47,034 bases of DNA from Candidatus Peribacteraceae bacterium (GTDB lineage Bacteria > Patescibacteriota > Gracilibacteria > JAHISY01): assembly GCA_021734705.1 (NCBI GenBank), contig JAIPIJ010000001.1:1-47034 (forward strand), given 5' to 3'. Position 1 is the first letter of the stretch. Each line of letters opens with the position of its first letter. The notes under the pieces were generated by a model that saw nothing but the letters and a program-made list of their open reading frames with translations, searched no databases and was not told the origin of the DNA. Below, piece by piece: positions 44,633-45,223 of the stretch. The translations under genes were made by a program, and so were the position numbers.

Positions 44633-45208
44633 ATGGCTGAAAAATTTATCGGTAAATACCGGATCGAATCTACGCGGTTAAAGGGGTGGAATTATTCGGA
44701 GGATGGCGCGTATTTTGTCACCATTTGTACCGACGACCGCACGGATTTTTTCGGTGAAATCAAAAATGGAAAATTGATCGAAACCGAACAATGCAGAATC
44801 TGCCGAGCGTGTTGGTTGGATTTGCCAAACCATTACCCGAATTGTGTTTTGGATGCGTTTGTCATCATGCCGAATCACGTGCACGGGATTATCGTGATTG
44901 ATAATTGGCGGGGTGGACGGGACGTTATTGTAGAGACGGGTTTGAAACCCGTCTCTACGGGAAAACCCGTCCACCCAAAACCCCCGCCACCCGTCCGTAA
45001 AAAATACCCATTATCCGAAATTGTTCGCGGGTTCAAAACATTCACCGCGCGTAAAATCAATCAACGCCAAAACACGCCCGGACAACCATTTTGGCAACGT
45101 AATTATTATGATCGTATCATCCGTGATGAAAACGAATTAAACCACACCCGCGAATACATTTGGAATAACCCAAAAAATTGGGCAAATGATCGTAAAGGCA
45201 GGTTTTAA
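44633..45208 (+). CDS. REP-associated tyrosine transposase (RAYT)
   Basis: Y1 transposase of the IS200-related RAYT group that processes palindromic REP DNA as single strands. AYFVTICTDDR, DAFVIMPNHVHGIIVI with the HUH motif HVH (82-84) and FWQRNYYDRIIRDENEL with candidate catalytic Tyr158/159. 191 aa. Residues about 98-115 (VIVETGLKPVSTGKPV) are read from a nested palindrome, and the last codons (KGRF) from another, so the gene carries its own kind of REP inside and at its 3' end. Lies between the ATPase and leuS. Confidence 0.92.
   Translation: MAEKFIGKYRIESTRLKGWNYSEDGAYFVTICTDDRTDFFGEIKNGKLIETEQCRICRACWLDLPNHYPNCVLDAFVIMPNHVHGIIVIDNWRGGRDVIVETGLKPVSTGKPVHPKPPPPVRKKYPLSEIVRGFKTFTARKINQRQNTPGQPFWQRNYYDRIIRDENELNHTREYIWNNPKNWANDRKGRF
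44911..44976. repeat. nested REP palindrome inside the RAYT gene
   Basis: Outer arms GGGTGGACGGG (44911-44921) and CCCGTCCACCC (44966-44976) enclose an inner perfect palindrome with 14-nt arms GTAGAGACGGGTTT (44930-44943) and 44945-44958, one-base centre. It stays in frame. Confidence 0.85.
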
Positions 45209-45215
45209 ACCTGCC
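45197..45215. repeat. REP palindrome at the RAYT stop codon
   Basis: GGCAGGTTT (45197-45205), one-base centre, AAACCTGCC (45207-45215). The RAYT stop TAA is its centre. It shares the GGTTT-N-AAACC core with the inner palindrome. Confidence 0.8.
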
Positions 45216-45223
45216 TCGACAGT

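Follow-up and report, generated by a model that had tools for sequence, protein, structure and literature searches.

The window analysed here, a stretch of 47,034 nucleotides from Candidatus Peribacteraceae bacterium, contains a gene for a REP-associated tyrosine transposase (RAYT, TnpAREP) that has REP palindromes within its own reading frame. This arrangement raises the question of how a REP came to lie inside the coding sequence of such an enzyme, and whether it is the hairpin on which that enzyme acts. Our main reading, to which we assign a probability of about 0.8, is that the gene encodes a TnpAREP of the subclass 2.4 type and that the double-foot GTAG REP which entered its coding sequence at a surface loop is most likely the cognate one.

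The RAYT gene and its palindromes

The features of the locus are as follows.

44633-45208, plus strand: RAYT/TnpAREP gene, 191 aa (profile and PDB-relative matches; invariant HUH, WQ and Tyr motifs)
44867-44884, plus strand: HUH motif MPNHVH, residues 79-84 (alignment)
44900-45010, plus strand: variable loop joining the HUH strand to the helix that follows, residues 90-126 (AlphaFold2 model; pLDDT below 50 for residues 98-109)
44911-44921, unstranded: left arm of the outer palindrome, GGGTGGACGGG, 11 nt, perfect (sequence, fold, chance estimate)
44930-44958, unstranded: embedded double-foot GTAG REP with perfect 14-nt arms, coding for VETGLKPVST, residues 100-109 (sequence and relatives)
44966-44976, unstranded: right arm of the outer palindrome, CCCGTCCACCC, 11 nt, perfect (sequence, fold)
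45092-45097, plus strand: conserved WQ, residues 154-155 (alignment and comparison with E. coli TnpAREP)
45155-45157, plus strand: catalytic Tyr175 in YIWNNP (invariant alignment column)
45192-45220, unstranded: degenerate sister copy of the REP where the gene ends, encoding the final residues together with the stop codon at 45206-45208 (sequence, core search, fold)

In profile searches the window protein matches PF01797 (E 2.6e-7) and the REP-associated tyrosine transposase family NF047646 (E 2.4e-18). The latter match, at 66.4 bits, is under the 80-bit cut-off and falls into two stretches, which fits a loop splitting the domain. By sequence, the TnpAREP structure 4ER8 is the sole PDB relative. 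This E. coli enzyme has the same HUH/Y1 core, and its W, Q and R residues, which recognize the GTAG guide, correspond to the W, the Q and the Arg ten residues past the W in the window protein. In contrast, E. coli TnpAREP has no long loop, its chain residues 67-78 corresponding to profile positions 90-136, and its REPs, whose stems are bulged, are located next to the gene (PMC6006769, PMC8266576).

The inner palindrome reads GTAGAGACGGGTTT-G-AAACCCGTCTCTAC. Its arms (44930-44943 and 44945-44958) are 100% complementary around a 1-nt spacer, and its double foot consists of GTAG at the start and CTAC at the end. It is enclosed by the outer palindrome, whose arms are of a length expected by chance with a frequency of ~0.0006 in a mononucleotide shuffle. 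As single-stranded DNA, the nested structure folds with -28.6 kcal/mol (z -7.2, 0 of 200 shuffles). The 3' palindrome, GTAAAGGCAGGTTT-T-AAACCTGCCTCGAC, forms 12 of 14 pairs, has the TAA stop codon at its center and reaches a z of -4.1 when folded as RNA. It is the only REP found flanking the gene, none being found upstream. The inner and 3' palindromes have the core GGTTT-N-AAACC in common, which a pattern search located 4 times in the 854-kb genome; the other two sites lie in frame in a xerD-like gene and in the intergenic region after uvrA.

These data bear out most of what an earlier note on this DNA had described: a RAYT gene whose own frame contains REP palindromes, a nested palindrome with 11-nt outer and 14-nt inner arms, a second palindrome with the same core centered on the stop codon, and a position after the HUH motif and before the catalytic Tyr. 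The genome search it proposed recovered the shared core as given above. It had assigned the nested palindrome to residues of about 94-116, which is right in location and about one residue off in numbering, the outer palindrome spanning residues 93-115.

Probable membership of TnpAREP subclass 2.4

According to Quentin et al. 2018 (PMC6006769), subclass 2.4 is unique in having in-frame REPs inside tnpAREP, generally between HUH and Tyr; double-foot REPs are described for it in the same study. Judged by published signatures and features, the window protein fits this subclass. It has the NH[IFV]H signature as NHVH (residues 81-84), the WQ signature as W154-Q155 and the YIxNNP signature as YIWNNP (175-180). 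Its length of 191 aa, with ~91 residues from the second His to Tyr175, is close to the ~194 aa and HUH-Tyr spacing of ~88 aa of the subclass; the median spacing among relatives is 90-92. In addition, the variable insertion between β3 and αC is found at residues 90-126, between the strand 82-89 and the helix 127-146, and the in-frame GTAG..CTAC REP at 44930-44958 lies between HUH and Tyr. The AlphaFold2 model has a mean pLDDT of 83.8, with >90 in the core, and the residues below 50 (98-109) nearly coincide with those encoded by the REP. The embedded REP is thus placed by the model in a low-confidence surface loop away from the catalytic motifs. The window gene adds the outer palindrome, a stop codon provided by a REP and a Patescibacteria-like genome, none of which excludes membership.

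Two other systems resemble this arrangement. GTAG-tagged palindromes located in frame in protein genes, and REPs within small palindromes, were also reported by Di Nocera et al. 2013 (PMC3733652); the parts of that survey available to us list host genes such as repair genes as well as RAYT-flanking REPs, and do not discuss embedding inside RAYT genes. Rickettsia palindromic elements are likewise in-frame palindromic insertions in coding genes. Those of R. conorii bear the CGTC tag according to PMC3733652, and elements of the CGTC type are without a dedicated transposase, whereas the palindrome in the window has GTAG feet and its host gene is itself a RAYT transposase. In the literature examined, RAYT-internal REPs were found only in PMC6006769.

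Recurrence of the embedded hairpin among relatives

Relatives were collected from 192 genomes, nearly all of one class, together with genomes from many phyla (Chloroflexi, Bacteroidota, Cyanobacteria, Planctomycetota, Nitrospirae and others); the many-phyla search gave >540 matches, of which 80 were kept. From these, 145 distinct RAYTs with recognizable HUH, W and Tyr motifs were taken. A hairpin scoring at least 10 is present in the loop from HUH to W in 109 of the 145, a fraction that may be somewhat too high because the similarity ranking used queries bearing the REP peptide. The same score was reached by 13 of 5800 codon-shuffled linkers (0.2%) and by 105 of 5800 synonymously recoded ones (1.8%). 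The relatives' hairpins are mostly 28-29 nt long, have the form GTAG..CTAC and begin ~20 residues past HUH. Other RAYT-type genes retrieved through NF047646 were tried as negative controls and set aside, as the motif rule parsed only 5 of them, too few for statistics.

About a quarter of the relatives have no strong hairpin, and some of these genes appear intact. Five REP-less relatives (L170, L179, L085, L128 and L109) keep their catalytic motifs, and the loops of REP-less relatives are shorter (median HUH-W distance 61 versus 71, p 0.002). The outcome that would have refuted the earlier note, a peptide encoded by non-palindromic DNA in every homologue, is therefore not what is seen: relatives lacking the peptide occur, and homologues with a peptide mostly have palindromic DNA, encoding unrelated peptides in two frames. 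The same note had called a REP inside the enzyme unusual; it is instead a described hallmark of subclass 2.4 (PMC6006769) and occurs in most of the relatives tested.

In-frame TGA codons were observed in the RAYT frames of several relatives, in genomes G177, G101, G117 and others, as expected for TGA-recoding lineages. Judged from its relatives, the window itself would belong to Patescibacteria, probably to the class comprising Peribacteria and such recoded lineages. Moreover, short in-frame tandem repeats expand the RAYT loops in L052, L115, L125 and L130 (for example YGRNTPR, GQPQNAI/GQSQNIT and GARHEKTGV), indicating that the loop tolerates other insertions too.

Match between embedded REPs and their enzymes

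Several comparisons link the embedded REPs with the enzymes that carry them. For 25 of 83 embedded REPs, a near-identical REP is present outside the gene within 500 nt, whereas ~0.6 would be expected with the genes exchanged. In nine genomes, pattern searches located 20 of 80 full REPs inside RAYT genes, which account for 0.19% of the DNA (0.15 expected). For nine of these 20, a copy with the identical core occurs elsewhere in that genome, outside RAYT genes, compared with 8 of 160 across genomes. Among the 83 genes, similarity of the core tracks similarity of the enzyme with its loop removed (Mantel r 0.30, 0 of 2000 permutations, tree ignored); cores are shared by 0.6% of pairs at 35-45% protein identity and by 54% at 65-80%. 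Particularly, the core GGTTCGCGAACC is common to five enzymes that are 58-71% identical and come from Chloroflexi, Cyanobacteria, Calditrichaeota and Nitrospirae. TnpAREP groups are known to co-evolve with their REPs in general (PMC8266576). Because matching REP copies occur in the same genome and the core tracks the enzyme across phyla, the embedded REP is most likely the enzyme's own substrate hairpin. No activity data on any subclass 2.4 enzyme were found in the literature examined.

For the window gene itself, the cognate reading has less support than across the relatives. Its nearest relatives carry the GGTTT-N-AAACC core modestly more often (6 of the 20 nearest versus 9 of 125), yet pattern searches of its own genome found only related GGTTT-N-AAACC cores and no second perfect full-length copy of the embedded core.

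The REP could have been inserted by the enzyme itself or have arisen through conversion from neighboring REPs, and would be tolerated because the loop is dispensable. Joint inheritance on a single stretch of DNA, together with renewal of the copies, could then keep REP and enzyme matched. A second insertion of the same REP family would account for the 3' copy that spans the stop codon, and the outer 11-nt palindrome would most simply be what is left of an older REP into which the inner one inserted.

Two explanations compete for the persistence of the REP in this place. The first, which we regard as evenly balanced between right and wrong, is that REPs insert everywhere and survive here only because the loop is disordered, so that the match with the enzyme just follows from closeness and recent insertion. 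The low confidence of the loop in the model, the kept catalytic motifs of the REP-less relatives and the presence of like REPs in frame in yggS and xerD are in line with such tolerance, and the authors of the 2018 study also favor little effect on the protein (PMC6006769). However, the concentration of a quarter of the full REPs in 0.19% of the DNA demands strong targeting or retention, pairing is near-perfect although the cores are diverse, and the tracking of enzymes by cores extends across phyla.

The second explanation, a tentative one that we hold to be the less probable, is that the embedded REP is selected, either for self-regulation of the mRNA or gene or because it ensures that enzyme and substrate move together at gene transfer. 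The frequency of the hairpin in the loop, its conservation as DNA under two reading frames (see below) and the way in which core and enzyme diverge together across phyla point in this direction, whereas the relatives that lack a strong hairpin, some of which have apparently intact genes, argue against it. Perfect copies make up 19 of the 20 embedded REPs and 48 of the 60 elsewhere, a direction that fits selection; the difference is not significant (Fisher p 0.17), so greater perfection of embedded REPs is not claimed. It is doubtful, while possible, that in this RAYT lineage the cognate REP has become a permanent and selected component of the gene, forming one transferable and perhaps self-regulating unit of enzyme and substrate whose embedded hairpin reads out the specificity of the enzyme.

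Where several enzymes coexist with several REP families in one genome, it is hard to tell which hairpin a given RAYT recognizes. Should the embedded hairpin be cognate, every gene of the lineage would be self-labelled, hundreds of enzyme-substrate pairs would be readable from sequence and the recognition code could be derived from gene sequences alone. Self-regulation of RAYTs, or the seeding of REPs from inside their own genes, would then become testable. The match of embedded REP and enzyme across phyla, the use of two frames and the quantification given here were not found in the literature examined.

One DNA element in two reading frames

The 84 GTAG..CTAC palindromes are read in frame 0 in 63 cases, in frame 1 in 21 cases and in the stop-containing frame in none; the frames used are the two that avoid the in-frame TAG of GTAG. 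In frame 0, GTA forms a codon and VETxxxxSL-like peptides result, while the second frame gives CRGxxxxAPT-like peptides. L071 and L181 read the 28-mer GTAGGGGCGTATTGCAATACGCCCCTAC in one of these frames, whereas L207 reads the identical sequence in the other. At core positions 10-13 all four pair types occur and are nearly always paired, indicating compensatory change, with the apparent pairing inflated by the choice of palindromes at no more than 3 mismatches. Judging from these sequence comparisons, the shared unit is the DNA and not the peptide. In addition, two RAYTs of one genome, L080 and L103, are 76% identical and differ in REP and frame, which suggests that REPs can be exchanged.

It is consequently very improbable that the palindrome is a by-product of a peptide conserved by constraint on the protein. 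VETxxxxSL-like peptides are indeed frequent in frame 0, as such constraint would have it, but the same DNA encodes unrelated peptides in two frames, synonymous recoding attains the hairpin strength in just 1.8% of trials and the loop is predicted at low confidence; the first two of these observations led us to reject this explanation. A chance palindrome or a transcription terminator deserves next to no credence: a hairpin does lie at the stop codon, where the 3' copy could stabilize or terminate the transcript, but most relatives have the same GTAG..CTAC element in the same loop, the element is also dispersed in genomes, the nested fold has the z of -7.2 given above, and chance was rejected on the codon shuffles and the recurrence.

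Other REPs in the genome

Further REPs were observed outside the RAYT gene. A perfect GTAG REP lies in frame in a gene for YggS, a protein of PLP homeostasis (L140, 1185-1865, minus strand, contig C36), where it codes for ISRDVARNVST; the best solved homologue has a gap at this peptide. A degenerate GGTTT-N-AAACC REP is located in frame in the gene of a XerC/D-type recombinase (L005, 972-1907, minus strand, contig C37) and gives the peptide VKTGLKPAST, a segment largely absent from E. coli XerD. The same genome also encodes a Y1 transposase of the YIHLNP type (L245, 1489-2022, plus strand, contig C7) that has neither loop nor REP and forms a natural contrast to the window RAYT. Moreover, GTAG REPs are found between lexA-like and recA-like genes (L141, 1501-1528) and between dnaK and an ilvN-like gene (L139, 1501-1529), the latter possibly extending the 5' end of the ilvN-like gene.
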